DNA of 64,000 nucleotides from NCBI RefSeq assembly GCF_004944975.1, contig NZ_SPQG01000005.1, positions 14,245 to 78,244 on the forward strand, read 5' to 3'. The notes under the pieces are model-generated. The model was given only the letters and a program-made list of their open reading frames with translations, was not told the origin of the DNA and made no database searches. Of the stretch, positions 23,509 through 57,251 are shown piece by piece. Position numbers and translations under genes: made by a program. The stretch's first letter is position 1. Each line of letters begins with the position of its first letter. This DNA comes from Halorhabdus amylolytica. Lineage in GTDB: Archaea; Halobacteriota; Halobacteria; Halobacteriales; Haloarculaceae.

Positions 23509-23589
23509 GATCGGTTGCGAATTATCGCCCGAGGAACGTGTAGCGTCGCGGCCCCACCGCTTTTGGGACCCCGATCCCTGTCTGAGAGT

Positions 23590-37732: not shown

Positions 37733-37757
37733 ATAAAGAAGGGGTACCGCCAGGGGC

Positions 37758-37796
37758 TTGAATGTTCGTTTCTGTATAGGAGACTCGAACATTCAA
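37758..37796. repeat. 11-bp inverted repeat upstream of the recombinase
   Basis: TTGAATGTTCG (37758-37768) and CGAACATTCAA (37786-37796) with a 17-bp spacer. The core GAATGTTCG recurs at 37687-37695 inside the recombinase gene. Possible crossover or operator site for the recombinase. Xer core sites normally have a 6-8 bp spacer, so an operator is equally likely. Confidence 0.65.
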
Positions 37797-38089: not shown

Positions 38090-41000
38090 TTACTGGCTAT
38101 CGTTCCCGCCAGCCTCGATCTCGATTTTGTTCACCTCGTCGGGACCGCTCCGCTGGCGGTACCACAGGTACGCTCCGACACCTGCCAGGATGATCACCAA
38201 GCCCAGATAGTCCTGAAGTGCGGACACCAGCGAGTCGATCACACCTGGAGACAGCACTTCCATCACGCCGATCCCGAACAGGCCGATACTGACCGCGAAG
38301 ATCGACCAAGAGAAGAACCCGACCTGGCGCATCCCCCAGAAAGCCGCCAGTGGGACAGCTGCCGCAACGATCAGCACGACGATGTCCGAGGAGATCGGGA
38401 TCACGCCGGTCATGAGCCCGCCAACGACTGCGAGTGCTCCCAGTCCGGCCAGTGCTGTTCGGTTCGATGCGATCGACCGGCCGACCGACAGGCTCGTCTT
38501 TGTGATTGTCATGCTCGTACGGCCGATCCAGACCGCGACCGATCCTCCAAGTCCAGAACTCGATGTCGACGCTGTCCCGCCACGCATCCGGGTGATCGCG
38601 ATGCCGAGACCCGCTACAGTGACCAGGCCGGCCGCGATCCAGAGCCACGGGAGCCCAGAGGCCTCTTTCGGAACGGGGACCGGGCCGATACTGTTCCCGC
38701 CACCGGATCCGTCATCAGACACTTGCGCGTTATCCTCGAGGATCCGCCACGTCTCATCGCTGTCGTCGTCGACGAATGTCGCTGGCGAATTGGCAGTGTC
38801 CGAATCGAGGACGACATCCCGCGACAGCGAGTTTAAGATATATTCGATGCCAGACTGTGCCCGGTAGTACCGGACTTCGACCTGATCTCCCTGACCACCG
38901 GGTCCTGGTCCGATATCCAGTTTCGGATTCGTCCCGGGTTTGAGGACGTCTACTCGGACATCGCCGGTTTTCGGCTCGACCATCGTTTTCAGGTACTTGA
39001 CCCGGAACGTATCGCCATCTTTGCTCTCCGGGAGGTACAGCTTCTGATCTCCGTCCGCCTCGATCACCGCGTAGTCCGACGTCGGATAGTCGTCCGAATA
39101 CGCATAGTGAACGCGCCGCCCATCAGCCGTCGTTCCAACGTTCACGTGGAACTCATTCGTCCGGTTTTCGATTCGAAGTTCCGTGTCGAGAGATTCTCCT
39201 GGTTTTGACGGATCCGTAATCGTGACCTCGCCATGTGCGACCTCAATCTTCCGGCCGACTGCTTCGACATCGACCGTTGCGCCGCTGGGTAATTCTTCGC
39301 CGAACTCATCCGACAAGTACACGTCCACTGTCGTCCCATTAAACCGGAGATTCTCTGCCGCAACCGAACCCCATTCACCACCGTCAACGCGGTAGACAAC
39401 CGATTTGATTGCACTTACGCTGTCAGACTGGAATGGGATCGTCACGGCCGCGTCAGCGGTCGCATCTGCATACGTGTAGCTCAGGTTATATCGCTCTTCG
39501 AAGGCTGTCGTGTTGTACGAGACACTCACCTGATTCGAGGCGCGGTGACTGTACTCGAGATCGGCTCGCATCGCCGGCGCATCTGCCGAGACCGATCCCG
39601 TTGAGACAGTTACCGAGTTTGAGCCATTCGTGACCCAGGCTTTATCACCAGTCAGTTGAGTCGTTTCCCCATCATTGAGTTGCCCCGTCGTCCCCAGCGT
39701 GTTCCCATTGACCGATACAGAAACATCGTTCGGGACAGTCCGCTCCTCGATTGTGGCGCTGATATCAATTGGCCCATTCGCCGTCATGATCGTCCAGGAC
39801 TCATCTGACAGCGATGGATCGATATCACGAGTTACTGACTCGGACGGGCCCAGTTTTCCATTCACCGACGCTTCTGGGGATCCGTCCCCATCGATATCCA
39901 GCGCCGGATCCGAAGAGTACAGTCGCTCCGTGTACTCGACCGTCCAGTCCGGATGCGGCCCGCTTGCGACTGACAAGTCGATCGTTGTCGAACCAGCCGG
40001 CAAAGCCGAGATTTCTCGCGTGACCGTCTGGCCATCAGTAAGGACACCTGAATACGATGCGTCCGTCGATCCATCACCATTAACATCCACCGACGGAGAC
40101 TGGGTCGCTGTCCGCTCAGTGAACTCAAGCGACCAGTCGACAGTGTATCCGCCCGTCGATGGAGAAATCGTCCGCGAGCCTGGTGACAGCGAGACAGATC
40201 GCGTTACCGACTGTCCGCTATTCAATACTCCGCTATAACTCGCTTCTGAGTTGCCGTCGCCATCGACGTCCAAACCTGGGTTTTTGGTCGCCTGATGGGC
40301 GTCGTACGTGATCGTCCAATCTGGAAGCGGCCCTTTGTTTGTCGACGTGTCGATCGACGTTGATCCGACTGGGAGTGACGCGATCTCTTTGGTCGCTGTC
40401 TGACCGTTGTCGAGCGTTCCTGTGTATGTTGCATCCGCGGACCCGTCTCCGTCGACGTCGACACTGGGGTCCTCGGTGAGTTCGACGTCATCGTAATCGA
40501 CGGTGTAGTCGACCGATCCTGCGTCAAGAGACAGCGACAGCGATGAGGCTGACGCATCAATCGGGAGACCTGTCGATTTGGACTCCCCATCGGTGAAACT
40601 CCCGAAATTGTGAGAGTTTCCGTTTCCATCTGAGACAGATACGGTTGACGGCGGTGCTCCCACCATTTTGATTTGGGCTGTTTGAGAGGCGCTGCTCCAA
40701 CCGTCATAGTCATAGTTTATCAGCCCTGTCCCGCTCGCTGTTGTCGCCGGGCGGATATATCCAGGATTATAGAAATCATTTTGAGGGTCCGCAGGAACGA
40801 ACTGAATCGTGACTTGATTATATGCCGACGCGTCGAATTTCTGAATATCAACTGTTGTCGTTCCACTTGGCGATATTTGAGCCCCGCTCTTCACCATCGT
40901 CCCGTCTGTCGCGTCGTTGTCCGTTGAATCGCCCCCTTCAATGTAAATCTGTGCTGTTGAGGGGTTTGAATAATCGGACCCCCCGTCAGTTGTGATCGAT

Positions 41001-42316
41001 AATTTATCGATCGTATCCGGAGGATTGTTTAGTCGGATTTCCGACGAGACGTTGCCATTGTAATATCCAAATAGCATATAACTCCCTCCGCCGAAATCAG
41101 ATGCGGACAATCCGTCACTATATCGTGATATTCTCGACGCAGTGACCGACATCTCTGGGTTACCCGAGACCGGCCCCTCGTAGAGATGCCCGGATTGTGT
41201 AAGGGAGATCGACGTATCGCTCGATGTCGAACCCGTCTCTGTTCGGGACGTGACATCGCGGTTGCCCTCGAACGTGATTTCCGGCTTGTTGTTCGAGGAC
41301 GGTCCGTATGGAGCGAGTTGGCCGTTCACTGTAAGCGAGCCGTCTCCCGTTCCAGAGGGTGTATATCGCGATCCCGTTCCCTCGCGTCCCGTGAAGGTCA
41401 CCTGCGGGGACCCAGATGCGGGACCCGTCGGATCGAGATTCCCGTCAACATCGACTTGAATCGATCCGCCATCAGTCTGGGATACCAATCGGGATGTCGA
41501 CGACCCTCGTCCAGTGAACGAGATCGTCGGCTCGTTATTCGCGGACGGTCCGACTGGTGGTTCATCGCCAGTGATTGATACCGATCGGTCTCCTGTGCCA
41601 GTCAACGTTTGGTTCAAACCCGTGTAAACGCCGCCAGAGAACTCTACCATCGTCGACGGCGGATCGACGTTCCCCGCGATGGCGGCGTCGATTGTCTCTC
41701 CTGGGCCAACAGTCGTCCCTGTGACTGTGTCTGTATCGCTAGTCACTGTTCCAGTCACATTTGCGGCCGGGTTTGTGACCGAATCATAGGATTCGACCTC
41801 GTAGCTGGCCGTTGAATCGTCTTCGTAGGTTCCAGTCACGCGCACCTCTCCCGAGAACGTCACGGTGTTCGTCGAGAAGTGCGGAACCTCGAAAACTAGA
41901 TAGCCGTCTACGTAAGTCGCTGAGGCTGTCCAAGACGAGCCATCATCGTGAGTTCCGCGGATCGACTGCGGAGTATATCCCAGTGCGTCTTTCAACTCGC
42001 CAGCGTCGATCGCGACTCGGCGCCCATCGTCGTGGGACTGATCACGCAGGACGATCGCCATGCCATCGCCCTCGAGGACGGCGCCGTCTGCACTCATGAT
42101 TTCAGACGCTTGCGACCGCGTCGTGAGGATCACTTCCAACGAGTCTGCGTGATCGCTCGCAAGGACACCTCCAGATAGCTCGTCAGCTGACAGCGGGATC
42201 GACTCGTTGGAGGGAACGTCCGCGCTCACCTGCGAGTCCGCGAGCGTGACCATGCCCGCCGGCGCGGCCTGTGCGGACCCGACCGCGTACGGAGCGACCG
42301 CGCCCGTCACGAGCAT
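38090..42316 (-). CDS. Giant repeat-rich surface protein (1408 aa) with C-terminal membrane domain
   Basis: The predicted secreted part (about 20-1210) has three zones. About 20-190 is a beta domain. About 230-420 holds four repeats of about 45 residues ending GPSANNEPTISFTGRG-like. About 600-960 holds five repeats of about 60-65 residues, each opening with a calcium-loop-like DVDGDG, DVNGDG or DIDGDG motif and ending in a Trp-rich strand. The end (about 1215-1395) has five or more hydrophobic helices. It is probably an adhesin or particle spike with Ca-binding repeats. Start is doubtful: only the ATG at 42316 is in frame, and the likely signal helix (RVLAIAFAIMLVTGAVA) begins upstream, so a frameshift may have cut the N-terminus. 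The last residues overlap no gene. Confidence 0.85.
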   Translation of the reverse strand: MLVTGAVAPYAVGSAQAAPAGMVTLADSQVSADVPSNESIPLSADELSGGVLASDHADSLEVILTTRSQASEIMSADGAVLEGDGMAIVLRDQSHDDGRRVAIDAGELKDALGYTPQSIRGTHDDGSSWTASATYVDGYLVFEVPHFSTNTVTFSGEVRVTGTYEDDSTASYEVESYDSVTNPAANVTGTVTSDTDTVTGTTVGPGETIDAAIAGNVDPPSTMVEFSGGVYTGLNQTLTGTGDRSVSITGDEPPVGPSANNEPTISFTGRGSSTSRLVSQTDGGSIQVDVDGNLDPTGPASGSPQVTFTGREGTGSRYTPSGTGDGSLTVNGQLAPYGPSSNNKPEITFEGNRDVTSRTETGSTSSDTSISLTQSGHLYEGPVSGNPEMSVTASRISRYSDGLSASDFGGGSYMLFGYYNGNVSSEIRLNNPPDTIDKLSITTDGGSDYSNPSTAQIYIEGGDSTDNDATDGTMVKSGAQISPSGTTTVDIQKFDASAYNQVTIQFVPADPQNDFYNPGYIRPATTASGTGLINYDYDGWSSASQTAQIKMVGAPPSTVSVSDGNGNSHNFGSFTDGESKSTGLPIDASASSLSLSLDAGSVDYTVDYDDVELTEDPSVDVDGDGSADATYTGTLDNGQTATKEIASLPVGSTSIDTSTNKGPLPDWTITYDAHQATKNPGLDVDGDGNSEASYSGVLNSGQSVTRSVSLSPGSRTISPSTGGYTVDWSLEFTERTATQSPSVDVNGDGSTDASYSGVLTDGQTVTREISALPAGSTTIDLSVASGPHPDWTVEYTERLYSSDPALDIDGDGSPEASVNGKLGPSESVTRDIDPSLSDESWTIMTANGPIDISATIEERTVPNDVSVSVNGNTLGTTGQLNDGETTQLTGDKAWVTNGSNSVTVSTGSVSADAPAMRADLEYSHRASNQVSVSYNTTAFEERYNLSYTYADATADAAVTIPFQSDSVSAIKSVVYRVDGGEWGSVAAENLRFNGTTVDVYLSDEFGEELPSGATVDVEAVGRKIEVAHGEVTITDPSKPGESLDTELRIENRTNEFHVNVGTTADGRRVHYAYSDDYPTSDYAVIEADGDQKLYLPESKDGDTFRVKYLKTMVEPKTGDVRVDVLKPGTNPKLDIGPGPGGQGDQVEVRYYRAQSGIEYILNSLSRDVVLDSDTANSPATFVDDDSDETWRILEDNAQVSDDGSGGGNSIGPVPVPKEASGLPWLWIAAGLVTVAGLGIAITRMRGGTASTSSSGLGGSVAVWIGRTSMTITKTSLSVGRSIASNRTALAGLGALAVVGGLMTGVIPISSDIVVLIVAAAVPLAAFWGMRQVGFFSWSIFAVSIGLFGIGVMEVLSPGVIDSLVSALQDYLGLVIILAGVGAYLWYRQRSGPDEVNKIEIEAGGNDSQ

Positions 42317-42455: not shown

Positions 42456-42767
42456 TCACGACATGCTCACCTCGCGCTTTTCGAGGTAGTAGTGAAAGAC
42501 GACTACCACGGCCATCCCGGCCAGGATCACGGGGTTCTGAACGGCCAGCGGCCACGTCAGTCCGATAACCGCGAGCATCCCCAGCGCGGTGACCATCGCG
42601 CCAGAGACGAGGATCGAGACGGTTCCACCGCCGGATGACTGTTGCATCCGGACGCTCGGGTCCTCGTCAGACCGGATTCGCCAGGCGACGACCAGCACGA
42701 GGTAGACCGCGATCGCGGTCGCGAGGGCGAATCGGATCGGCGTCTGGTGCGGGATCGCGTCGATCAT
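42456..42767 (-). CDS. Small membrane protein (103 aa)
   Basis: Three hydrophobic segments at about 12-30, 50-68 and 76-95, with a short basic end (YYLEKREVSMS). It begins inside the MCM stop. Its own stop (42456) is followed by a GTG in the overlapping frame that would be the natural start for the 1408-aa gene. No family recognised. Confidence 0.75.
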   Translation of the reverse strand: MIDAIPHQTPIRFALATAIAVYLVLVVAWRIRSDEDPSVRMQQSSGGGTVSILVSGAMVTALGMLAVIGLTWPLAVQNPVILAGMAVVVVFHYYLEKREVSMS

Positions 42768-44668
42768 AGACCAACCTCCTCTGCGGAGACGCCGGACGCA
42801 TCGCCGAGCGCCGCGTTCGATTTGGGTTCGATACCGATGTCAGCGAGTGAGCGTTCGATCATGGGAGTGACTGCGTCGACGTCCTCGATGGTAACCGTCG
42901 AGGCAAACCGGACCCGTGCGTGTGCTTCGGCGAGACGCTGGAGAGCGTCGAGTTTCCGCGCCGTCACGGGCAACGGCGGTCCCTCGTAGTCGCCGGACTG
43001 TTCGATCGCGTCGGAGTAGCGACTCGGCAGATCCGTCTTCAGATCGACGTACCAGTCTTGCATCCGCTCGCGAGCAGCCTCGGACGCGACCGGCCGCACG
43101 CGCTGCTGGGCGGCCGCGAGGTACGCCGCGAACGCGTCCGCGTCGATCTCGCGCGTTATATCGCGCGCGTCGACGTCGTCCCCGCGGTCGAGTGCGCCCG
43201 CGTTCTGTCGGGATTCGACGACCGTCTCCGCGACTTCACGTTGCTCGGACTCGTCGAGGTCCTGCCTGATCGTAAAGATCAGATCAAACCGTGACAGGAG
43301 CGGCGACTGGAGTTCGACCTCGTCGACGAAGTCCCGCGTCGGATCGAAGTGACCGCCGACCGGATTCCCCGCCGCGAGCAGCGCCGCCTGGGCTGGGAGT
43401 GTTGCGTTCTTCCCCGCTTTGCTGACGTGGACTTGCTGAGACTCGAGCGCCGTGTGGAGTGCGTCGAGGTCCTCCGTGTCACCCTTGTCCAGCTCGTCGA
43501 CGATCGCCAGCCCTTCGTGAGCGCGGACCAGCGTCCCTGCCTCGATCGACCATTGCTGATCGGAGAAGTCGTCTTTCGTCAATGACGCCGTCAAACCAGC
43601 CGCCGACGAGCCAGTACCGTCGGTCTTGACCGAGCGCGGAACGACGTCACTGATCGCCTCCAGGAGTAGCGTCTTGCCGACGCCAGGATCGCCGATCAGA
43701 TAGACGTGGCTGTCGCCTCGGTGGTAGTTCCCGTCCGGACCAGTGCGAGGGAACGATCCGATGACCTGGAGGACTAACGCTCGCTTGACCAGCGGATAGC
43801 CCTGAACCGAGGGAGCAAGCGAGTCTGCCAGCAGGCCCAGCGGATCCGGATGCTCTTTGATCCGCTGGATCGTCTCCGCGTACCCCTCGACATCGAGATC
43901 GTCAAGCGCGCGCTCTTCAGTCTCGATGCCGTGGGCGACGAGCATCCGCTCGTGGACAACGTTGCCCTTCCGGGTGATCGGGACGAGTTCTCCGACGACC
44001 GTCACTCGTCGGCCGCCTTCGATCGCACCGTGGCCCGGCAGGTCATCGTGGACGTGCGCGTCGATGTACTTCGTCTCGCCGGCTGCCTCCTCGGGCGGTT
44101 GCTGGATCCGGATCTTCTGGTAGTCTTGCCACTCGGACTGTGTCTCGTTGATCCGGAACGGGCCTTTCATCTCGCAGCCCTGGCACTCGTGGGGCTCGCG
44201 GATCAACCCGTAGTCGGGTTGGGAGAGTCGAGTGAGCGTCCCGCAACGGACACACTCGAACGCTGCCCGATCCAGTCGTGGCTCGACTTCTGTCCGCTTG
44301 GTGATTTGCCCGCGAACCGCGACAGATCGGCCGATGTACCGCGATGGGCTATACGTTCCGACGACGTGCGTGTGTTCGCCGGGCGCGTTCACGAACCGGA
44401 CGCGCGCCATGCCGAGTCGACGGACGTCGGCCTTGAGGTCGGCGTGCTCAGGATAGGCTGCCAACGCTTCTTCGGCCGCGTCAGTCGAGTCATCCGGACG
44501 TGAGATGACGTTCTCTGCGAGTCCTGGCGCAACCTTGTCCAGCGCGTCGAGATCCAGCACGAGCGTTCGCTCGTCCGGATAGGACTCCGCGAGATCCTGC
44601 ACCTCATCGTGGGCGATCTCCTCGATCGCATCGAGCCACTGCGTCGATGGATTAGTACCGACGCTCAC
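42764..44668 (-). CDS. mcm: MCM replicative helicase
   Basis: A 634-aa AAA+ MCM, GTG start inside the TGA of a 45-aa ORF. It has an N-terminal domain with a zinc finger (CVRCGTLTRLSQPDYGLIRE and HECQGC, about 137-164) and OB-fold. The AAA+ core has Walker A GDPGVGKTLLLEAIS (about 330), Walker B LAIVDELDKGD (about 388) and the arginine-finger region LLSRFDLIF (about 462). A C-terminal winged-helix region ends at about 634. Mobile-element MCM copies are known in archaea; this one would unwind the element's own origin, probably with the Orc1/Cdc6 at 55770. Its location within the membrane-protein operon is unusual. Confidence 0.95.
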   Translation of the reverse strand: MSVGTNPSTQWLDAIEEIAHDEVQDLAESYPDERTLVLDLDALDKVAPGLAENVISRPDDSTDAAEEALAAYPEHADLKADVRRLGMARVRFVNAPGEHTHVVGTYSPSRYIGRSVAVRGQITKRTEVEPRLDRAAFECVRCGTLTRLSQPDYGLIREPHECQGCEMKGPFRINETQSEWQDYQKIRIQQPPEEAAGETKYIDAHVHDDLPGHGAIEGGRRVTVVGELVPITRKGNVVHERMLVAHGIETEERALDDLDVEGYAETIQRIKEHPDPLGLLADSLAPSVQGYPLVKRALVLQVIGSFPRTGPDGNYHRGDSHVYLIGDPGVGKTLLLEAISDVVPRSVKTDGTGSSAAGLTASLTKDDFSDQQWSIEAGTLVRAHEGLAIVDELDKGDTEDLDALHTALESQQVHVSKAGKNATLPAQAALLAAGNPVGGHFDPTRDFVDEVELQSPLLSRFDLIFTIRQDLDESEQREVAETVVESRQNAGALDRGDDVDARDITREIDADAFAAYLAAAQQRVRPVASEAARERMQDWYVDLKTDLPSRYSDAIEQSGDYEGPPLPVTARKLDALQRLAEAHARVRFASTVTIEDVDAVTPMIERSLADIGIEPKSNAALGDASGVSAEEVGL

Positions 44669-44802
44669 CGTCGATCACCTCGGACGAGTCGGGGGTCGCC
44701 CCCAGATCGGGCGGCCGGGGGAGCGTTCGCAATCTGAGTCAGATACGCGCGCGTACAACTGACCTCGATTTTCCGAGATTTTCGGGCCGATTCCGGGCTC
44801 AC
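44665..44802 (-). CDS. 45-aa basic small protein
   Basis: Reads MSPESARKSRKIEVSCTRAY then LTQIANAPPAARSGGDPRLV and RGDRR. It starts with GTG inside the stop of the ATPase gene, and its TGA overlaps the MCM GTG. Both junctions are 4-bp overlaps, which favours a real ORF. Basic, unlike the neighbours, so possibly DNA binding. Confidence 0.5.
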   Translation of the reverse strand: MSPESARKSRKIEVSCTRAYLTQIANAPPAARSGGDPRLVRGDRR

Positions 44803-46322
44803 GCCGGCTCACCCCCGGATTCCGCCTCTGACTTAAAGCCCCGATCCGGTTTGGGAACTCGAGCGACCTCGATCTCTCGCTGGTCTGTCGTCGACCGCAT
44901 CTTCACCACTCGAACCCTACCCTGATCGGCGAGATCATCGACGAACTCCAGGTCTTCAACCGGAGATTCGAGGTCCTCGATCACCTCTGCTCGCGTCACG
45001 TCGATCTTCCCAGTGCCTGGCGCTTTGACGAACAGCCGATGATCCGACTGATTTTGCCACTCTCCGAAGATCGAGTCATCGAACTCGACGCTCGGGGTCG
45101 GTTCGTCGCTTGACTCGTCGGTTTCGACTGGTTCGACCAGCGTCACTCGGAGCCAGCGCTCGTCATCGACACCGTCGACGTCGATGTCCGACCAGCCGAA
45201 GCGCGTCCAGCTGTCGGTCTTGCCGTCCTGGTAGCAGAGGCCGAGACCGGGATCCTTGTCGGACATGAACTCGCTCTTCATACCGACCGTGCCGAACCCG
45301 AGCGGGATCGACGAGGCCCGTGACCGACGGGGGTTGGCCCGCCCAGGCATACAGATCCGCCACTCGAACTGCCGCCGGATCCGCGGCGCGATCGTCTCTT
45401 CGTGATGAGCGAACCAGACCATCGAGAGGAGCCGCTTCCTCGAGGACGCCCACAGCCCACGGAGGAGTTTGATCTTGTCGCGTAACCGATCGCCGGCGTC
45501 GTTGCTCGCCTCCCGCGGGAAGATGTCGTTCGACTCGTCGGAGATGAACGTCCACCACTCGAAGGGGCCGTATTCGGTCCGAGCGAGCAGGAACGCGAAC
45601 CACCAGTGCGTCTGTGGGGTCGAGACCTCGCCACCGTCGACGTCCGACTCCGACCGGAACGGGAGCGATCCCGGCACCCGGTTGGACCGTTGCGTCTCCT
45701 CTTCGCACCCGCTAAAACTCGGATCGGGATAGACGACGTTGAACGAGCCCTCGGGCTGATCGCCCAGCTGGTCGCAAAGATCGCGGACGTCCTCGTAGCG
45801 CTTGACGTCTCGGACAACATCCTCGAGGTCCTCGATCTCCTCCCGAAGCGTGTCCGCCTCCTCGTTCATCCAGACAGCATCGACGTCCGCGTTCTCTGGG
45901 AGGAACAGCGTTGTCCAGTCACGATACGGGAGCCATCCAGAGCGCTCGCGAGACCCGCGCCAGATGACCTTTTCCCCGCGTTCCATCTCGACGGCAGAGA
46001 TGTTGAGTGCGAGTGTCGTCTTGCCTGAGTCCTTCGGACCGGCTACGAGACAGTCCGCCCCCTTGCTCGAGGACGTGATCTCCGGGTCCCGCTCGTGGAT
46101 GAGCATGTCCGGATAGGTCATCCGATAGCCCTCTCGATCGCGGAACGTGTCCGGATCGAGGGGACTGATCCCGTAGCGCTCCCGGATCTCCTCAACGTCG
46201 GTTCCCCAGTACTGGGGCGGACGCTGTCCCTGCACCCGCTCCGCCTGGATCGTCCGCTCTCCGTAGTCGTAGCCGTCGGGCGGCCCGCGTTCGATACGCT
46301 CTGTATTGGTCGATTTGCTCAT
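44799..46322 (-). CDS. P-loop NTPase, packaging or DNA-transfer type
   Basis: A 507-aa protein with Walker A LVAGPKDSGKTTLALNIS (about 92), Walker B in EWWTFISDESNDIFP (about 262), and RKRLLSMVWFAHHEETIAPRI followed by RRQFEWRICMPGR (about 295-330), which resemble the sensor and arginine regions of HerA/FtsK/VirB4-type pumps. There is no transmembrane segment. A Trp-rich stretch TPQTHWWFAFLLARTEYGPF lies before Walker B. It probably drives DNA into particles or across the membrane. It overlaps the genes on both sides by 4 bp. Best guess: the motor of the particle operon. Confidence 0.8.
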   Translation of the reverse strand: MSKSTNTERIERGPPDGYDYGERTIQAERVQGQRPPQYWGTDVEEIRERYGISPLDPDTFRDREGYRMTYPDMLIHERDPEITSSSKGADCLVAGPKDSGKTTLALNISAVEMERGEKVIWRGSRERSGWLPYRDWTTLFLPENADVDAVWMNEEADTLREEIEDLEDVVRDVKRYEDVRDLCDQLGDQPEGSFNVVYPDPSFSGCEEETQRSNRVPGSLPFRSESDVDGGEVSTPQTHWWFAFLLARTEYGPFEWWTFISDESNDIFPREASNDAGDRLRDKIKLLRGLWASSRKRLLSMVWFAHHEETIAPRIRRQFEWRICMPGRANPRRSRASSIPLGFGTVGMKSEFMSDKDPGLGLCYQDGKTDSWTRFGWSDIDVDGVDDERWLRVTLVEPVETDESSDEPTPSVEFDDSIFGEWQNQSDHRLFVKAPGTGKIDVTRAEVIEDLESPVEDLEFVDDLADQGRVRVVKMRSTTDQREIEVARVPKPDRGFKSEAESGGEPA

Positions 46323-47152
46323 GTTCCTGGCGTGGCCTCCTGGAGACTGCCCTGATCGCTCAGTTCACCCGCGCGGAGTTCCCTGGCGGCCGTCGCGAAC
46401 GTCGGCAGCAGCTCCGCGATCGCGAACCGAAGTCGGTACATCTCTGCGTCCCGATCGTCACCGACCAACTGACCGACAGCGTATTCGTCGCTCATGATGT
46501 CATCCGCGTAGTCCTCCTCGAGTTCGCCGTACGTCGCCGGACTCAGCGAGTGTAACCACTGCGAGATCGCCGTCCGAGAACCGAACCCCTCAAACAGGGA
46601 TCCGAGAGCATCCGCCTGCTCGAGATCCAGCCGCACGAATGCCGGCCGCATCCCGACGTTCGCCTCTCGCTTCGGGTCGATCTGGCGCCAGTCCGGATCC
46701 GACTCGGCCGGGCCAGTGGCTCGCTCCGACGCGCGATCTCGGAGATGGTTGTACGCTCGCTGGCAGGCGGGCGCGACGATATGATCGACCAGCTGCGAGC
46801 GGTACGCTCGCGACTTGTCGAGATCGCCCAGCAGTCCGGATAGGAGCGTCCGGTCTCGCTCCAAGTCGATCGCCGGCCACTCCTCAGCGACGTATCCGAA
46901 CGTGCGGACGGCGATCGCCTGCCACCACATCACCGCCGTCGTCCGAGTTTCGATCCCCTCGATCAGCGCTGGGAGGCGCTGGGTCGATCCCGAGGGCAAC
47001 GTCCGAGAGTGCCCGCCACGATACACCAGCTGTCGCTGCTGGAACTGGAGGACGTCCAAGGCCGCACGAGTCGTCCGGCGGACGCGATCGCCATCCTTCT
47101 GATCGTGACTGGGAGGGGACCCCCCGGATGCGGGTGGGGTGTCAGTCGCCAT
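46319..47152 (-). CDS. Hypothetical helical protein upstream of the ATPase
   Basis: A 277-aa soluble, helical protein. Features are a Gln-rich helix LDVLQFQQRQLVYRG, LLSGLLGDLDKSRAYRSQLVDHIV, and FGSRTAISQWLHSLSPATYGEL. No family recognised. It overlaps the gene upstream by 11 bp and the ATPase by 4 bp, so it is likely a partner of the ATPase in the same complex. Confidence 0.7.
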   Translation of the reverse strand: MATDTPPASGGSPPSHDQKDGDRVRRTTRAALDVLQFQQRQLVYRGGHSRTLPSGSTQRLPALIEGIETRTTAVMWWQAIAVRTFGYVAEEWPAIDLERDRTLLSGLLGDLDKSRAYRSQLVDHIVAPACQRAYNHLRDRASERATGPAESDPDWRQIDPKREANVGMRPAFVRLDLEQADALGSLFEGFGSRTAISQWLHSLSPATYGELEEDYADDIMSDEYAVGQLVGDDRDAEMYRLRFAIAELLPTFATAARELRAGELSDQGSLQEATPGT

Positions 47153-49121
47153 GACCTACCCCCTCGTCGACGTCCGGATTGTCGACATCAGCGCCGGCAT
47201 CGCGACGGTCGTCACGGAACGCCCCACGATCGACTCCCGTGATCCGTTCGTTCATCCGCTCAGTGACCGTCGCGTCGCGCTTCTCGGCCGCATCGAGGAT
47301 CTCCTTTTGCGTCTTCGCCCGCTCGTCGTACTTCGCCTGCCGCTCTTCCTCGAGCGCCATCGCGTCCGCGTAGCCGACCTGGCGAGCCGTCAGCATCCCC
47401 TCGACATCGGACCAGTGCTTCGGTGCGACATCGAAGTCAATGACCGCGTCGCGAGCACGGATCGACATGAGCAGCGTTGGGAGCAAACCCAGACCGATTG
47501 CGAGTGGCTGGATTCCAACGAGCCCCATCACGGTCGCGAACAAGACACCGAACCCGAGCGCACTCTTCGCGAAGAACAGCCAGTTCGGCGTCTTCAGAGC
47601 CTGAACAATCGGATGGGCGTCTTCGTCGGGCTCGGTCGTCAACGGCGGGTCGAACGATAGAGTCGCTGGCTGGAAGTGGACCAGTTGTTCGCTGTCCGGA
47701 TCCAGATCCAGAAACAGATCGATATCACTGCCGTCCTTGCCCTTCTCCGTCATCCGCATCTTGTCGACCGGAATCGTCGCCGGCTCTGCCCAGACCCGGG
47801 CAATCGCTGCCTGAAGTCCCCGCGGGACGATCTTCCACCGGCCGCCCTCCCGGACGATCGGTAGTACCTTCTGGTACCGGTACAGCGACTCCTGGAAGTC
47901 CTTGAAGACGCCACGAGGCGAGGAGTGCTTGCGGACCTCAACTTCCGCGTCAGCCGGCATGTCGTTGTCCGACCAAGGTTTGATCGGAGCGACAGACGAC
48001 CGAACTGTCTCGATCAGTCCGCTCTTCGGATCATCTGCTTCCCCGTCAGCGCCTCCGTTGCCACCGATACGGGACCCTCCGTCGGCCCCCAGGTCCACCA
48101 GCAGATCGTCAGCATCCGGCACCAGATCTTCTGCCGCCCACTCGCCGATCGGATTGTAATCGCTGTTCCGGAGGCGATCCGCGTCCGAGAGGTAGTACTT
48201 CGTGAACGCGAGCGACTGCACGCGTCCGCTCGCGGTTGCTATCCGACCGACGAACGCAAGCACGCCCAGCCACGCGCCCATGATCCACGGCAAACGAGCG
48301 AGGATCACGACGATGTAGTTGAGCCAGGCCGTGAGAACGATCAGCCCGCCGATGCCGAGAACGATCGCCCAGATCACCCACGGGTATCGCGGCCCGCGTC
48401 CGATCCGATCGAGCGTTTTCTTCCCGCCGATCAGTCCAGCCGGAATTACGATCAAGCCCGGGATCAGCGCCGCTTGCGCCGTAAACCACCACGCGTCGCC
48501 CAGAGAGTCGATCGACGTCCCTTGCATCGCCGGCAACGAGTCGTGAGTGAACCGCCACTGGGCACCGTCGACCCGCTGCCCGTCGATCTCCAGCCACATC
48601 GTTGCCTCCCAGTCACCGTTGTAGTGCGGCTTGAGGTCGATCTCCGTGAGACCGCGGCCACGCGGTAGGTCGATCGTCTTCGTCTGGACTGACTGGTTGG
48701 CGGCCACCGAGACCGATCGAGTGCCCGACTCGGACTGTATCTGTTGTGACCCCTCTTGCCAGTAGACGATCTTGAGCGTCGCCTCCTCTGTGTCGACATC
48801 ACGGCCGAACCGGACGGAATACAAGTCGATCTGATTCGTCCGTAGCTCGGCTCCCGGATCGAGGTACTGCCAGCTGGTCTCGAACGGATGGGCCGGCGTG
48901 TACCGGACCGCAACCTGCCCCTCCCAGCCGAGTGAACGGACCGATGCAGGTGTCTGATCCGACTCCGGGGCGGCGCCGTACGATCGGAGTTGCTCGAGAT
49001 CGTACTGGCCCGTCGTCGTATTCGCCGTCTGGGTCTGGGACTGCCCGCTCGCGACCGGCACGATCACCGCGGCGACCGCCAGACCGACGAGTGCAACCAC
49101 GAGGATGCGACGCTCGTCCAT
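47142..49121 (-). CDS. Large membrane protein with secreted beta domain (659 aa)
   Basis: Signal peptide (about 1-27, MDERRILVVALVGLAVAAVIVP). An extracellular beta domain (about 30-205) includes VRYTPAHPFETSWQYLDPGAEL and WRFTHDSLPAMQGT. Three helices follow (about 213-235, 245-270, 272-295), then a cytoplasmic region (about 300-535), two more helices (about 540-580) and a coiled, charged C-terminus (LEEERQAKYDERAKTQKEIL then DAAEKRDATVTERMNERITG). The order outside-domain, membrane, cytoplasmic domain suits a scaffold that links surface and motor. No family recognised. Confidence 0.8.
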   Translation of the reverse strand: MDERRILVVALVGLAVAAVIVPVASGQSQTQTANTTTGQYDLEQLRSYGAAPESDQTPASVRSLGWEGQVAVRYTPAHPFETSWQYLDPGAELRTNQIDLYSVRFGRDVDTEEATLKIVYWQEGSQQIQSESGTRSVSVAANQSVQTKTIDLPRGRGLTEIDLKPHYNGDWEATMWLEIDGQRVDGAQWRFTHDSLPAMQGTSIDSLGDAWWFTAQAALIPGLIVIPAGLIGGKKTLDRIGRGPRYPWVIWAIVLGIGGLIVLTAWLNYIVVILARLPWIMGAWLGVLAFVGRIATASGRVQSLAFTKYYLSDADRLRNSDYNPIGEWAAEDLVPDADDLLVDLGADGGSRIGGNGGADGEADDPKSGLIETVRSSVAPIKPWSDNDMPADAEVEVRKHSSPRGVFKDFQESLYRYQKVLPIVREGGRWKIVPRGLQAAIARVWAEPATIPVDKMRMTEKGKDGSDIDLFLDLDPDSEQLVHFQPATLSFDPPLTTEPDEDAHPIVQALKTPNWLFFAKSALGFGVLFATVMGLVGIQPLAIGLGLLPTLLMSIRARDAVIDFDVAPKHWSDVEGMLTARQVGYADAMALEEERQAKYDERAKTQKEILDAAEKRDATVTERMNERITGVDRGAFRDDRRDAGADVDNPDVDEGVGHGD

Positions 49122-49280
49122 CTAAATGGGCACCCCCAGAGACTCGGCCGTCTCGGCCGTTCCCTCGACGACGATATCGATAGCCGACAAGATCAAGGCC
49201 GGCCGCAACACCGCGAGCGCGATCACCGCGCTGGCGAGGAGCAACAGCGCGATCGCTTCCGGGTCGATCTTGACGAACAT
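49122..49280 (-). CDS. 52-aa single-helix membrane peptide
   Basis: Reads MFVKIDPEAIALLLLASAVI, then ALAVLRPALILSAIDIVVEG and an acidic end ETAESLGVPI. One long hydrophobic helix. It is placed exactly between the 659-aa and 160-aa genes, with its stop adjacent to the next start. An in-frame GTG at 49286 is an alternative start. Confidence 0.6.
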   Translation of the reverse strand: MFVKIDPEAIALLLLASAVIALAVLRPALILSAIDIVVEGTAETAESLGVPI

Positions 49281-49287
49281 CGCCACG

Positions 49288-49770
49288 TCAGAGCACCTCC
49301 GGGAGTCGATCGATGAGCAGGATCACGACGACGACCAGAGCGATGCCGGCGACATCCGACACCGATAGCGGCCACGCCAAAGCCGTGCAGAGGAGGCCAG
49401 TCCAGGCCATCGCCCACAGCGGGACCATCCCGGGGATGAGATGCCGAGAGATCCCAGACCGGTATCGGATCTCGTCGTCGATCTCCTCGAGACTCCGGAC
49501 GCTCGGATGGATTCGCTCGAGGCCGTCAAGCCACCACGGGAGGCCCGACAGGACGACCCAGACAGAGATCAGGACACGCGGGACCAGCGAGAACTCCCCA
49601 CTGTATCCAGGGCGGAGCGTGTATATCGCACCCGCGAGGGTTAATGCGCCGATCAGAATCGGCATTTTCACGTCCCACAGATCTCGCAGGGAGATACCTC
49701 CGTCCTTGCGGGACTCGTACGCCAGCCGGTCGACAGCCGACTCTCCTGGGGCTTCGATCGATTCAGGCAT
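49288..49770 (-). CDS. Membrane protein (160 aa)
   Basis: Four hydrophobic helices at about 36-54, 63-82, 113-132 and 137-154. The loop at about 85-110 is acidic (SLEEIDDEIRYRSGISRHL). No family recognised. It overlaps the upstream gene by 8 bp, so the whole block is one operon. Confidence 0.75.
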   Translation of the reverse strand: MPESIEAPGESAVDRLAYESRKDGGISLRDLWDVKMPILIGALTLAGAIYTLRPGYSGEFSLVPRVLISVWVVLSGLPWWLDGLERIHPSVRSLEEIDDEIRYRSGISRHLIPGMVPLWAMAWTGLLCTALAWPLSVSDVAGIALVVVVILLIDRLPEVL

Positions 49771-50188
49771 ACTCGATCACCACTCCGAGGCCGACGACGA
49801 TCAGCGCGCCCACGAGGAACGACGAGGCCGTCACCGCCAGTTGGCCGGAGAGCCCGAAATAGCCTAATCCCGTGACGACGAACGAACTGGCCAACACCGG
49901 GGCTTCCGTCACTAAGCCACCCCAGACCTCGCCGCCGAGCTGGGCGAGTTCGCCCATGAACTGGACGACGATGCCCAAGAGGACAACGACAAACACCCGC
50001 ATCGTCGAGAGGATCCCGCCGGACACCTCCTGAACCCGATCGCCCGCGCGTTCGGCCGTCCGATCAACTGACTCTCCCTCACGACGGTCCCGTAGCGCAC
50101 CGTACAGCGAGTAAGCCAGTATCGGGAGCGACAGCACGACGACGCCGACGATGATCAGTGTTCTGGGGGTTGTCGGGACCTCAAGCAC
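49763..50188 (-). CDS. Membrane protein (141 aa)
   Basis: Three or four hydrophobic helices at about 9-31, 62-82 and 95-138, with the charged loop RDRREGESVDRTAERAGDRV in between. Starts with GTG. No family recognised. It overlaps the 24-aa ORF upstream by 8 bp. Confidence 0.75.
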   Translation of the reverse strand: MLEVPTTPRTLIIVGVVVLSLPILAYSLYGALRDRREGESVDRTAERAGDRVQEVSGGILSTMRVFVVVLLGIVVQFMGELAQLGGEVWGGLVTEAPVLASSFVVTGLGYFGLSGQLAVTASSFLVGALIVVGLGVVIEYA

Positions 50189-50255
50189 GGTTCCTCACCC
50201 CCGTTCGGAGTCGATACAACTGCTCGGATCGGTACGTCGAAATCGAATGTGTCAT
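50181..50255 (-). CDS. 24-aa micro-ORF between two membrane-protein genes
   Basis: Reads MTHSISTYRSEQLYRLRTGV then RNRA. It begins 2 bp after a TAA and is preceded by GAGAGG, a plausible ribosome site. Its stop overlaps the next gene. May only couple translation. Confidence 0.35.
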   Translation of the reverse strand: MTHSISTYRSEQLYRLRTGVRNRA

Positions 50256-50257
50256 GG

Positions 50258-50551
50258 TTATAACCTCTCTTGGACGCCGTCTATCAATCGATTCAACCGG
50301 AGGACGCCGTACAGCGTGGCTGCACCGACCAAGACCGCCGTGCCGATATGCGTCGGAATCCAGGGCACGTTCGGCGCGATCGTCGCACCGAAAATGCTCG
50401 ACAAGGAGAACCAACTGCCCGCGTAAGCGGACAGGTACCCGATCAACGGATCCCAGATTCCGCCGAGATAGCTCATCGCCAGCGACAAGGCTGCGAACGG
50501 GTGGACGGCCAGCCACAGCAGGCTCTTCGAGTCGTCTCTCTCAGTGCTCAC
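50258..50551 (-). CDS. Membrane protein (97 aa)
   Basis: Starts with GTG (MSTERDDSKSLLWLAVHP) inside the preceding stop, so the longer frame to 50668 is discarded. Hydrophobic helices at about 12-30, 40-58 and 66-84. No family recognised. Confidence 0.72.
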   Translation of the reverse strand: MSTERDDSKSLLWLAVHPFAALSLAMSYLGGIWDPLIGYLSAYAGSWFSLSSIFGATIAPNVPWIPTHIGTAVLVGAATLYGVLRLNRLIDGVQERL

Positions 50552-51189
50552 ACGAACCACCCCTTGATCTTCGACAACGGCGACCCCAGCGAGCGGAGAG
50601 CCATCGGGGCCAGCGACCCGATCGTGATGACCAGGCCGTATCCCACTGCGAAGATCGCGGCCGCCCACAAGAGGACAACCACGATCGGACCGAGTGGGCC
50701 GGCTGCCTCAGCCGCCTGCTGGGTGAGTGCCAGGTAGCCCTCGACGAGGCTCAAGATCGGGATCATGATCGCATTGAGCAGCGACATCTCCGGGACCTGT
50801 GGGGCGTTCGAGCCCGGTACCGAGGCGAGCGGGCCGACGATCACTCCCGCAAGATACCCCGGGATATCCACGAGCGAGAACAAATCCCACGTCTGGCCGC
50901 CGAACAGTGGTACGTCGCTGTCAGGCGTGTACTCGAAGCCCGCCATGATCATGATCGCCGCGAACAGCATCCGGTTCGCCGAGAGGAACCAGCCTGCCGC
51001 CGTGCTCAGGAACAACCCAGCGACTGCGCCGGATGGGTTCCTGAAGAACGCCTCTGCCGTCGAGAGCCAGTCGGGTTTGTTGAAAATGCTGAACCAGCTA
51101 GTCCCGCCTCCGCCACCACTTGGATCTGGAGGAGACGGCACACCAGTATCCGAACCTGGGTCACCATCTCCTGGAGACGTGTTCGCCAC
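50548..51189 (-). CDS. Membrane protein with Gly/Pro-rich N-terminus (213 aa)
   Basis: Disordered start (PGDGDPGSDTGVPSPPDPSGGG), then about four hydrophobic segments at about 53-85, 108-128, 140-160 and 167-195. The loop FEYTPDSDVPLFGGQTWDLF may be exposed. No family recognised. It has 1 bp to the next gene and a 4-bp overlap with the 97-aa gene. Confidence 0.75.
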   Translation of the reverse strand: MANTSPGDGDPGSDTGVPSPPDPSGGGGGTSWFSIFNKPDWLSTAEAFFRNPSGAVAGLFLSTAAGWFLSANRMLFAAIMIMAGFEYTPDSDVPLFGGQTWDLFSLVDIPGYLAGVIVGPLASVPGSNAPQVPEMSLLNAIMIPILSLVEGYLALTQQAAEAAGPLGPIVVVLLWAAAIFAVGYGLVITIGSLAPMALRSLGSPLSKIKGWFV

Positions 51190-51190
51190 G

Positions 51191-51577
51191 TCAGAGCACC
51201 TCCCCGATCGCGTACCAGACGGCCCAGCCGCCGACGAAGACGACTGCCATCATCCCAAGTGCGACGTATCCGGGCTGATCAGCCATCCAGGCGGTCGTGT
51301 TGTGGACTGCGATCCCGTAGATCGAGCCCATGTCGTAGCCATCTCCATCGGAGAAGAACGACACGAACAGACCGATCCAGTCCAATGGCGCGGCAACGAG
51401 ATCGGCGAACGCTATTGCCTGTCGGCGGAGGAACCCGAGGACCCCCGTGACGACCGCGGCGATCCCGCCGAACGTCGTGATCTTGAACATATCCCCGAAG
51501 GCTGGGCGAGGGTTGTCCTTTTCTTCGAGGCTATCAAGGCCGTCCCAGTCTTTGACGAGGTCATCACTGTCTACCAT
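51191..51577 (-). CDS. Membrane protein (128 aa)
   Basis: Begins MVDSDDLVKDWDGLDSLEEK. Three hydrophobic helices at about 30-48, 55-78 and 103-126. The C-terminal helix reads YVALGMMAVVFVGGWAVWYA. The longer frame to 52141 reads antisense through the next gene and is discarded. A 19-aa ORF (51571-51630, MLTTPSQRRACGTGVRQPW) ends inside its start region and may be a coupling ORF. Confidence 0.75.
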   Translation of the reverse strand: MVDSDDLVKDWDGLDSLEEKDNPRPAFGDMFKITTFGGIAAVVTGVLGFLRRQAIAFADLVAAPLDWIGLFVSFFSDGDGYDMGSIYGIAVHNTTAWMADQPGYVALGMMAVVFVGGWAVWYAIGEVL

Positions 51578-51632
51578 GGCTGACGCACCCCCGTACCGCA
51601 CGCGCGCCGTTGGCTGGGGGTCGTCAGCATGG

Positions 51633-52076
51633 CTACTCGTCCTCCCCACCACCCCAGAACGGGATGATGTCACCGACGAACGGTGCGTCAGAGTCAGTGA
51701 CGTTCTGGCCCAGCTGGAACAAGTACCAAGCGATCCAGACCAGAGCGATCGCGATGATCGCGCCTGCGATCCCTTCATTGCCGACTGCATCGGCTGACGC
51801 CTGGAAGCCACTATCAACGACCTCAGCAATGCCCGCGGGCAGGGCAGCCAGCAAATCCCCGATCGCCGATGTGACCTGCGAGACGATGTACCCGAATCCG
51901 ACACCGAGCGCACGGATCGGATTATTGAGCAGGTACGTGAGGGCGATATAGATGCTTCCGACCATCGCACCCAGGAACGACGTGATCGACCCGTAAGTCC
52001 GGGCTTTAGAGATGAACGCGCTTGTCTGTGGCACGTTCGTGTTCTGGTCGCTCCAGTCGCCACCACTACTGGACAT
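51633..52076 (-). CDS. Membrane protein (147 aa)
   Basis: Polar N-terminus (MSSSGGDWSDQNTNVPQTSA), three hydrophobic stretches at about 33-50, 55-92 and 105-122, and an acidic tail (FVGDIIPFWGGGEDE). The order (polar head, membrane core, acidic tail) is repeated in several neighbours. No family recognised. Located directly after the spike-like gene. Confidence 0.75.
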   Translation of the reverse strand: MSSSGGDWSDQNTNVPQTSAFISKARTYGSITSFLGAMVGSIYIALTYLLNNPIRALGVGFGYIVSQVTSAIGDLLAALPAGIAEVVDSGFQASADAVGNEGIAGAIIAIALVWIAWYLFQLGQNVTDSDAPFVGDIIPFWGGGEDE

Positions 52077-52082
52077 GAGGAG

Positions 52083-53561
52083 TCACCCCACCAGATTACG
52101 GAGACGAGTGACCACGATACCGATCGCGCCGACGATACCACCGATGATTGCCCCGAACGTCGCGGAGATGCCGCCGTCCTGCTGGGGCATCACCGCGCCA
52201 CCGCCACCGGCCTCCTGCATGTTCGTTTTGATCTCGTCCCACTTGTCCTGCGTGTAGCGATGCTCTTCGTGAACGACGATCGTCTGGCCGGGCTGGATCG
52301 TATCGTCGAGGACGACCCGCTGTCCCTCACTGTCGAACTGGGCAGTCCGGCCGACCATCGATCCTAGATTGTCGAACTCAGTATCACCCGCGCCCTCGAT
52401 GTACTCGACAGCCACGTAGCGGTCGCTCGGGTGCTGCTGGGTCTGGGTTAGCTCGAGATCAGCGTGCGAGAGGTCGTACGCCGTCGGCACTTCGAGCCGA
52501 TACCAGTAATCCACGGAGACATCGTAGCCGGGATACTTGTCCGTCTCCGTCGCGTTGATCTCGATGTCTTCTGCCGGGAGGTCAGCCGCTTCGTGCTGCA
52601 CCGGGATCGATAATCCATGCACGATCGCGCTTGAGAACGCATCCCCGAACGTCGACAGCGAGTGGACGTCGTACGGTCCCGTTGGCTCTTCGATGACTTC
52701 GGTTTCGAGTTCGTCATCATCGTCTGAGTCGACCCGTTTCTCACCGAACGTGTACGGTGACATCGCTTCGGCGTTGATCAACGGCATCTGCGTCACGACG
52801 TCACCGTCACTAATCCGGACCTCCAGCGCCTGGATCTCGCTCAGCGTCCCGTCACCGCTACCCTCGACAGTCCGCTGACCCAGTTGGACCTGGAGGACGT
52901 TCCCCTCTCCGGTCGCGTTCGCGAGAACGCCATCGTCCGTCTCCTGCTTGCTCGTATCCAGTAGATCGACAGCGACGTAATCGCCGTCAGCGTCTTCGAC
53001 GCGTATCTCCGCACTCGCCCCGCTGGCGGCTGTCGTCACGTCCGACGCGATCGATAGGTACCGTTTCTCAGCGTCGCTCGTGATCGAGACATTCGAGTAG
53101 CGGAAGATAGCCGTGTCCCCGCTGGTCATGCCCGTCGCCGAGACCTCGACTGCGTCGACGTTCGATGCTGTCGACGAGTCAGAGATGGATGCTGTTACTC
53201 CGGACGGTTGCTGGCTGACCGTCCACTCGCTTCCATCGAGCGCCGAGGCCGAGTTTTCCGTTTCGTCGCTCTTGCGCGGGAACTTGTTGAAGTCATCGAC
53301 AGCGAGATCAGTCGCCGTTACACCATACGGATTGTCGACCGACTCGTTGACGTCCGCGTTCGGAGCCAAGAGATCCCCCTGGTTCCCCTCGTACGTCAGC
53401 GGATCGTCCCAAGAGAGATTGTACTTCTGGATCGTGTACGACCCCTCGTTGATCGTCGGATTCGCCGCACCGGAGTCAGCAGCGAAGACCGCTGTTGCCG
53501 CGCCAGCCATCGACGAGAGAACGACGACAGCAGCCGCCAGAACAACGAACGATCGTCTCAT
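52083..53561 (-). CDS. Spike-like surface protein (492 aa)
   Basis: Signal peptide (about 1-28, MRRSFVVLAAAVVVLSSMAG then AATAVFAADS), a long acidic beta-rich ectodomain (about 30-440), and a C-terminal transmembrane helix (about 464-484) with the short tail TRLRNLVG. This is the layout of haloarchaeal pleolipovirus spikes of about 500 aa. I cannot show homology. A Gly-rich hinge (EAGGGGAVMPQQDGG) precedes the membrane helix. It is the first large gene of the particle operon, which fits a major surface protein. Confidence 0.78.
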   Translation of the reverse strand: MRRSFVVLAAAVVVLSSMAGAATAVFAADSGAANPTINEGSYTIQKYNLSWDDPLTYEGNQGDLLAPNADVNESVDNPYGVTATDLAVDDFNKFPRKSDETENSASALDGSEWTVSQQPSGVTASISDSSTASNVDAVEVSATGMTSGDTAIFRYSNVSITSDAEKRYLSIASDVTTAASGASAEIRVEDADGDYVAVDLLDTSKQETDDGVLANATGEGNVLQVQLGQRTVEGSGDGTLSEIQALEVRISDGDVVTQMPLINAEAMSPYTFGEKRVDSDDDDELETEVIEEPTGPYDVHSLSTFGDAFSSAIVHGLSIPVQHEAADLPAEDIEINATETDKYPGYDVSVDYWYRLEVPTAYDLSHADLELTQTQQHPSDRYVAVEYIEGAGDTEFDNLGSMVGRTAQFDSEGQRVVLDDTIQPGQTIVVHEEHRYTQDKWDEIKTNMQEAGGGGAVMPQQDGGISATFGAIIGGIVGAIGIVVTRLRNLVG

Positions 53562-53707
53562 CGATCGCCTCCCTTGTGCGTGGTTGTGGATTCAGTACGC
53601 GATTCGTGAGTTGTGGAATACATCGGTGAACTGTCTGAAAATCCCCGTTTGCCGGCTGGAGAATGCCGTGTTTGATACTGCCGAGACTCCCGAGATCGAC
53701 CAGTCAC
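53558..53707 (-). CDS. 49-aa basic ORF upstream of the spike-like gene
   Basis: Starts with GTG inside the stop of the preceding ORF, and its TGA overlaps the spike ATG. The product (MTGRSRESRQYQTRHSPAGK and so on) is polar and basic with no helix-breaking pattern. The double 4-bp overlap favours a translated ORF. Confidence 0.45.
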   Translation of the reverse strand: MTGRSRESRQYQTRHSPAGKRGFSDSSPMYSTTHESRTESTTTHKGGDR

Positions 53708-53901
53708 GAGTGAACCAACTCCCGAATCCCGTCGCCGAGCGTCGCGATCGTGATCAGTGTCGCGCGGCCCGCCTCTGATCGCGGCTCACGGGAGACGCCA
53801 CGCAACTCGCTCGCGGACATCTCGTCAGCATCGATACGACCGATATCGTGCCCGTTTTCAGGGTAGTCCGGCCCTGGAAGGCCAGTTCTCGATTGACCCA
53901 T
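53704..53901 (-). CDS. Small protein heading the particle operon (65 aa)
   Basis: Begins MGQSRTGLPGPDYPENGHDI. The end reads AGRATLITIATLGDGIRELV, a weak amphipathic helix. The start at 53901 is preferred because a perfect palindrome (53909-53925) lies just before it. It is probably the first gene of the minus-strand operon. Unrecognised. Confidence 0.55.
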   Translation of the reverse strand: MGQSRTGLPGPDYPENGHDIGRIDADEMSASELRGVSREPRSEAGRATLITIATLGDGIRELVHS

Positions 53902-53908
53902 TGTTGCC

Positions 53909-53925
53909 CCGCGCATTATGCGCGG
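53909..53925. promoter_or_regulatory. Palindrome before the particle operon
   Basis: CCGCGCAT and ATGCGCGG flank a single T. It lies 8 bp upstream of the start at 53901, where a bound repressor would block initiation. Candidate operator. Confidence 0.5.
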
Positions 53926-53972
53926 ACGCGAGGCCATGCCGGACAGATGGTAATAAATCCGAGAAAAATAGC

Positions 53973-54020
53973 TATTGTATACCTATTGTATAGTTATTGA
54001 ATAGGTATTGTATACCTATT
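53973..54020. repeat. 11-bp iteron array
   Basis: Four consecutive 11-bp units at 53973, 53984, 53995 and 54006 (TATTGTATACC, TATTGTATAGT, TATTGAATAGG, TATTGTATACC) and a half unit. Embedded are two inverted repeats, AATAGGTAT/ATACCTATT (54000-54020, perfect) and a one-mismatch version at 53967-53987. AT-rich, helically phased. Either the operator of the particle operon and the AbrB-like gene, or a replication-origin iteron set. Confidence 0.8.
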
Positions 54021-55560: not shown

Positions 55561-55769
55561 ACCCGGCCATCTCACCCGGATTCAACATAAAGTTCTAGGT
55601 TTTACTGAGTTTGTAGAATTCCTCGGATTCACCGCCCATTACGGCAGTTTAGAACTATTTGGTATTCAATATGTTCCGTACCGCCTGTGTTAGCTACGCG
55701 CTGGGACCAATTTCACTTTCATGCTGGTATTCACTCACGGTTTTATATCCCGGCGATGGACGAGAAATC

Positions 55770-57230: not shown

Positions 57231-57251
57231 GGGTATCACCGTATCGTGGTC

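Follow-up and report, generated by a model that had tools for sequence, protein, structure and literature searches.

What is encoded by a long run of co-directional genes in the haloarchaeon Halorhabdus amylolytica, among them seven consecutive membrane proteins and a P-loop ATPase, and does it serve to spread DNA? These genes lie in a stretch of 64,000 nucleotides (contig NZ_SPQG01000005.1, positions 14,245 to 78,244 of the forward strand), the whole of which is referred to as the window, and an original prediction had taken window positions 42764-53901 for one operon forming an undescribed particle or vesicle. The strongest statement to be made is that the genes of this block serve an integrative element as its module for dissemination; release of that element as a membrane particle or plasmid vesicle is given a chance slightly short of even. 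Its gene content fits a mobile, DNA-handling module of membrane and surface proteins, and the operon lies at the heart of a larger element of 29.6 kb, which has inserted into the tRNA-Ala(GGC) gene of the Halorhabdus genome (window 30824-60402).

The gene run and its conservation

The gene run was defined by open reading frame (ORF) listing, Pfam and hydropathy, with membrane helices and signal peptides called by a simple hydropathy scan only. In the order of transcription on the minus strand, it comprises A, seven hydrophobic proteins (B-C-D-E-F-G-H), I, J, K and an MCM helicase (L). Most of the parts named in the original prediction were recovered. Its spike-like secreted protein with a C-terminal helix is A (492 amino acids, 52083-53561), a C-terminally anchored surface protein possessing an N-terminal hydrophobic helix, a carbohydrate-binding-like domain and a C-terminal membrane helix. 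Its seven consecutive small or medium-sized membrane proteins extend from 52076 down to 49122, with 1 to 3 predicted helices each: B (147 amino acids, two helices, 51633-52076), C (128 amino acids, 51191-51577), which stands at the place of a second B copy and is not matched by the B profile, D (213 amino acids, 50548-51189), E (97 amino acids, 50258-50551, its start set at GTG 50551 from the overlap), F (141 amino acids, 49763-50188), G (160 amino acids, 49288-49770) and the single-helix H (54 amino acids, 49122-49286). The large membrane scaffold corresponds to I (659 amino acids, 47142-49121), with a hydrophobic N-terminus and four predicted helices, the helical partner to the soluble J (277 amino acids, 46319-47152), directly upstream of K and with no membrane helix predicted, and the P-loop motor to the Walker-motif ATPase K (44799-46322). 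The MCM is also present (42764-44668; PF00493, 4.8e-69) but, judged by its distribution, is a replication passenger and not part of the core, since no more than 13 of about 65 loci have one, placed ahead of K in some and behind it in others.

The extent and spacing of the predicted operon had to be revised. Its junctions are not all overlaps of 4-8 bp, as had been claimed; there are overlaps of 4, 8, 11, 4 and 4 bp and gaps of 55, 69, 130 and 139 bp, the 130-bp gap lying between K and the MCM. The co-directional minus-strand run is real, but the predicted interval is too short, as the same strand continues past the MCM with M (103-amino-acid membrane protein, 42456-42767; where relatives have an M, it mostly lies upstream of I), N (1408-amino-acid surface protein with a repetitive ectodomain and five C-terminal membrane helices, 38090-42316), O (90-amino-acid two-helix membrane protein, 37815-38087) and the co-conserved small tyrosine recombinase INT2 (37100-37792; PF00589, 5.1e-20). 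A small ORF upstream of A (53704-53937) was placed in no conserved family.

Family counts were obtained by iterated profile searches over about 65 fetched loci, which are not independent because some genomes give more than one locus. J is found in 62 loci, I in 58, B in 57 (119 matches, usually two to a locus), E in 50, A in 47, N in 46, F in 45, the regulator Q in 43, D in 31, INT2 in 24 and O in 9; no homolog of G or H was detected over the fetched loci. K occurs in 41 named loci of a genome collection, at least two copies of B being present in 34 of these 41. A lack of conserved gene order in other elements had been set beforehand as a test of the original prediction; the order (A)-B-I-J-K is kept in 35 of the 36 named loci that have B, I, J and K, and on comparison of these loci the recurrence of the A/B/I/J/K order is beyond chance.

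The module loci span at least five haloarchaeal families, with K in 32 of the 146 genomes from the host family and in 38 of the 170 from a second one. Halorhabdus salina FL145 is a relative of the same genus that carries the operon, and a further relative (L060) occurs in Haloferax gibbonsii ATCC 33959. With the profile of I, 20 of 393 genomes sampled evenly across the phylum gave matches, all inside the host's order and one of them marginal (6.3e-4). The K tree intermixes host families, with 14 label changes against a minimum of 5, suggesting transfer between families. That the module is a conserved unit moving between haloarchaeal families is strongly supported by these comparisons. In one locus type (L044-L046 and L049; n = 4) two smaller proteins stand in place of A, and in some loci a short multi-helix protein followed by a protein of 720-800 amino acids stands in place of N; from this it would seem that recognition parts can be swapped while the membrane-motor core stays the same.

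Two further K-bearing or element-bearing sequences deserve mention. A contig labelled Rhizobium sp. S152 (NZ_JAUDRZ010000015.1, L080) contains a near-identical copy of a Halobaculum litoreum element; contamination or a wrong label on the contig explains this best, and transfer to a bacterium is less likely. On the 163-kb Halosegnis marinus plasmid NZ_CP119803.1 K occurs twice, near 16.7 kb and near 132.1 kb, the two genes scoring alike, and there may be two element copies.

The integrated element and its insertion site

The tRNA-Ala(GGC) gene that is the integration target was identified by ARAGORN as an intact copy at the left end of the element (30765-30836, plus strand). Its 3' end forms attL (30824-30837), an exact repeat of 14 bases, CCCGCCGAGTCCAT, that extends one base past the annotated tRNA; the second copy, attR (CCCGCCGAGTCCAT, 60389-60402), adjoins the tyrosine integrase INT1 (59296-60321, plus strand; PF00589 and PF02899). 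A related element occupies the same tRNA in the sibling Halorhabdus genome G069, where 13 of the 14 repeat bases are present twice at a distance of 28.3 kb, an integrase closely akin to INT1 (9.5e-212) is found at the same place beside the repeat, and A, B, D, E, F, M, I, J, K and N are located between the repeats. In Halorhabdus G070 the site is empty, the tRNA being joined directly to the host sequence that is found right of the element in the window. The tRNA end lies about 80-190 bp from the host flank in Halorhabdus G071, G072 and G073, which contain extra tRNA-end copies that look like scars of past insertions, and a gap of 2.5 kb separates the two in genome G068. From this comparison the tRNA-Ala site looks like an integration hotspot with scars. 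The marks of a tRNA-integrating element, att repeats, an integrase and an empty site in relatives, are all found here. Because of the repeats, the integrase, the occupied sibling site and the empty sites in relatives, mobility of the element is strongly supported by genome comparison.

Other genes of the element encode a D12-class adenine DNA methyltransferase (31698-33119, plus strand; PF02086, 1.4e-23), with a homolog at the matching place in the sibling element, an Orc1/Cdc6-type replication protein (55659-56780, plus strand; PF22703 and PF13401), a TumE-type toxin, a MazE-type antitoxin and Q, a predicted transcriptional regulator of 586 amino acids that is co-conserved with the module (34770-36530, plus strand). 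Q matches phrog_15150 at 7.7e-199, yet no relative of it was found in phage records or viral contigs. An HVO_A0114-type regulator (56781-57596) adjoins the TumE-type toxin, the two probably forming a toxin-antitoxin pair of the element. Four AT-rich repeats with 11-bp spacing (53967-54020) lie where the A operon and the MazE-like gene at 54031 diverge and may be an operator. Adjoining the insertion site, several partial copies of the tRNA-Ala 3' end are located at window 60450-60525 and in Halorhabdus loci L132-L136, and also in element-free genomes.

Surface proteins, motor and putative function

The high-confidence AlphaFold model of A (predicted local distance difference test, pLDDT, 85.7; predicted template modelling score, pTM, 0.80) consists of an N-terminal helix, a beta-rich ectodomain and a C-terminal helix, the terminal helices being of low confidence. 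Foldseek aligned part of A with carbohydrate-binding modules CBM11 and CBM61, phage tailspike domains and the HFTV1 turret; only a domain match is claimed because the whole-chain template modelling (TM) scores are low. Matches to viral structures are partial and mostly to tail-fibre and tailspike proteins, and the pleolipovirus spike is absent among the best 50 PDB fold matches listed for A. A lectin-like receptor-binding role is the simplest reading of this model.

K belongs to a family known from other archaeal elements. All 20 of the K members scanned match phrog_22963 (best 1.9e-18), and HHalign relates K to the pTN2 plasmid ATPase with a probability of 98.7%. The pTN2 protein has been grouped with ORF375 of PAV1 and with a gene of a Methanococcus voltae provirus, and its function called obscure (PMC3543421). 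From the family length and the pTN2 link, phrog_22963 would be the PAV1-ORF375 family, whose mark, a profile match over the ATPase core, was found for K only. In the AlphaFold model of K (39 sequences, pLDDT 80.5, pTM 0.76) the fold is HerA/B204-like: the closest PDB structure by Foldseek is the genome-packaging ATPase B204 of STIV2 (4.8e-6, TM 0.61 on the target), followed by HerA translocases, the Zot N-terminal domain, the conjugation protein TcpA and a VirB4-type complex (TrwK). The model supports K as a predicted DNA or polymer translocase, with a fold that fits both packaging and conjugation motors. A relation to ABC transporters, suggested in 2013 (PMC3543421), is disfavoured by the fold comparison, which points to HerA/B204. 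Over residues 87-328 K shows a weak match (2e-5) to the PADLOC model for the defence protein Mad8, so that this ATPase of defence may share ancestry with the PAV1/pTN2 motors. The region 19349-25881 of the Haloarcula plasmid pHsi55 has a relative of K close to genes annotated as a type IV secretion DNA-binding protein and a type IV pilin.

Profile searches of Pfam, NCBIfam, PHROGs, PADLOC and PDB named no core membrane or surface protein. Clear homology to a known conjugation system, S-layer locus or secretion system had been named beforehand as something that would refute the original prediction; Pfam, NCBIfam, PHROGs and PDB profiles gave no match to families of these kinds, and Pfam, NCBIfam and PDB profile searches detected no sequence homologs of VirB4/VirD4, relaxase, VirB6 or VirB2. 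Relaxases, coupling proteins and VirB/Tra domains are likewise absent from Pfam and NCBIfam scans of the main ORFs of the element. PDB profile searches gave no convincing match for B or I and none for J, PAV1-137 included. A single PHROGs match of B to a viral major head protein (E 0.28) was treated as chance because of its weak score and its absence from other members of the B family.

How the parts might work together can be proposed as follows. A and the giant N would be displayed on the membrane and would bind surface glycans of the recipient's S-layer. The tandem B proteins, with D-F and I, may form a membrane assembly, as B is present in more than one copy and inherited together with A, I, J and K; B would be the candidate main coat or fibre subunit. 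Under this assembly K, with J as its partner, could pump the excised circular DNA of the element through or into it, and the product would be a released membrane-enveloped particle or plasmid vesicle carrying the element. This outcome is favoured because the genes for the anchored and probably receptor-binding A and N belong to one run and share its strand, because genes for a scaffold and for a small membrane protein in more than one copy accompany that of a B204-like motor, because no relaxase or coupling protein was seen, and because pR1SE, which is similarly laid out, exports itself in plasmid vesicles (PMC10818511).

The same parts could be read as a machinery for contact-dependent DNA transfer, like archaeal conjugation or DNA import, in which B would provide two-helix pilins, F and I a channel, K a VirB4/HerA-type motor and A and N the mating-pair adhesins. 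The tandem two-helix proteins, the matches of the K model to HerA, TcpA and TrwK and the gene neighbourhood of the K relative on pHsi55 are consistent with this reading; the missing relaxase, coupling protein and VirB/Tra domains argue against it, as does the lack of convincing matches for B and I, although divergent pilins and channels could escape such a search. Contact transfer is held to be less likely than not, yet a serious rival, and on balance the particle or vesicle route is preferred to it. A surface or secretion complex for adhesion, competition or defence that helps the host or the element and moves no DNA is unlikely. The large variable N, the lectin-like A, the many membrane proteins and the resemblance of K to Mad8 agree with such a complex; K, however, shares its fold with DNA translocases and its family with proteins of plasmids and a virus (PMC3543421), an integrase and replication genes accompany the module, and no defence model of PADLOC besides Mad8 convincingly matches the core. 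Least probable by far is that a provirus from a known group, such as the pleolipoviruses or spindle-shaped viruses, has decayed or diverged here, which would explain the layout of spike, membrane proteins and ATPase and the lone head-protein match of B; that match is not common to the rest of the B family, the core ORFs are intact, and profile comparison with HRPV-1 and His1 yielded nothing beyond a weak P-loop signal.

Several observations weigh against release of a particle or vesicle. Particle formation, excision and DNA transfer are predicted from the genes, and no core protein appears homologous to a known virion protein. Pattern scans of IMG/VR viral contigs with K, A and Q found no relatives, nor do phage records contain a relative of K or Q. 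The IMG/VR result speaks only mildly against particles, since pR1SE-like elements are likewise absent from that collection (PMC10818511). The fold of K is also near the conjugation ATPases TcpA and TrwK, and pNG100 and other Haloarcula plasmids encode K without the module, so that K is not specific to it.

Comparison with known archaeal elements

The original prediction had compared the block with pleolipoviruses and plasmid-vesicle elements; the resemblance holds for the layout and does not extend to homology with the proteins of HRPV-1, His1 or pR1SE. Profile comparison of A, B, D, E, F, I, J, M, O and Q with HRPV-1, His1, pTN2, pR1SE and pMEFER01, and of N with the first three only, revealed no detectable homology, K being the only core protein for which these elements gave a relative; the HHalign targets were mostly single sequences or pairs, so that very distant kinship could escape. 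Pleolipoviridae (HRPV-1) share an anchored spike, small membrane proteins and an ATPase, but here the spike gene comes first and the membrane proteins are many more. The comparison of hidden Markov models that had been proposed as a check gave no similarity between A and the VP4 spike, and the best probabilities against HRPV-1 were 3.2% for VP8 and 1.1% for VP3. No similarity was found by HHalign to the two-helix major capsid protein of His1, a type of protein that diverges quickly.

The haloarchaeal pR1SE and its relatives (apHPV; PMC10818511) are similar in their secreted proteins, tandem small membrane proteins, further membrane proteins, a HerA/B204-like ATPase in last position, integration, and an MCM or Orc that is often nearby. 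They differ in having two gene clusters where the module is one gene run, and in sequence: 11 module families, the ATPase included and N left aside, reached at most 13.3% over 19 residues against 21 pR1SE proteins. Elements of the apHPV type are defined by at least five of ORF6, 8, 17, 21, 23 and 24, a set that profile comparison with pR1SE does not recognize in the module, and Pfam scans of the main ORFs of the element detected no peptidase, such as the S8 family serine peptidase of apHPV ORF7. The pT26-2 family (PMC6972569) shares large anchored proteins, small membrane proteins, an ATPase in last position and a carbohydrate-binding domain in one protein. It is defined by seven core proteins including the ATPase t26-14p, and was represented by pMEFER01, against which the module scored 4.8% at most and the core set was not recognized. 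Halfvol2, a provirus of Haloferax volcanii located at nt 329565-341853 of CP001956, was compared by its published description only: integrated at tRNA-Ala with ten membrane-protein genes, it was induced, its circular DNA was recovered from cell-free virus stock, and it has been called a novel group (PMC7911831). Its integration site and many membrane-protein genes recall the present element, which is 29.6 kb long against only 12.3 kb for Halfvol2.

The ATPase family of K is common to the ORF137/ORF375 cassette of PAV1, the pTN2-like Thermococcus plasmids and the virus-like particle of Methanococcus voltae A3, and in the PAV1-type cassette a gene for a small helical protein lies directly upstream of the ATPase, as J does before K (PMC3543421); pTN2 differs in having no detectable homolog of A, B, I, J or N. 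No description of the gene set was found in the literature searched, most subscription journals lying outside the search. The module as a whole appears undescribed, with individual K relatives already known; it would function much as known kinds of element do, with only the ATPase family in common with them. There is a substantial chance, if below even, that it represents a separate and widespread lineage of archaeal membrane-enveloped viruses or plasmid vesicles with its own spike (A), coat-like protein (B), scaffold (I) and PAV1-type motor, unrelated to pleolipoviruses and pR1SE. If particles are made, they would constitute an overlooked route of gene transfer in haloarchaea. The module also offers a testable job for the PAV1-ORF375 ATPases, whose role has been described as obscure (PMC3543421). 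Three unrelated archaeal types, pR1SE, pT26-2 and the pleolipoviruses, already join surface proteins and small membrane proteins to a DNA motor, and the module of Halorhabdus would add a further such type, with membrane proteins of no detectable homology to theirs.

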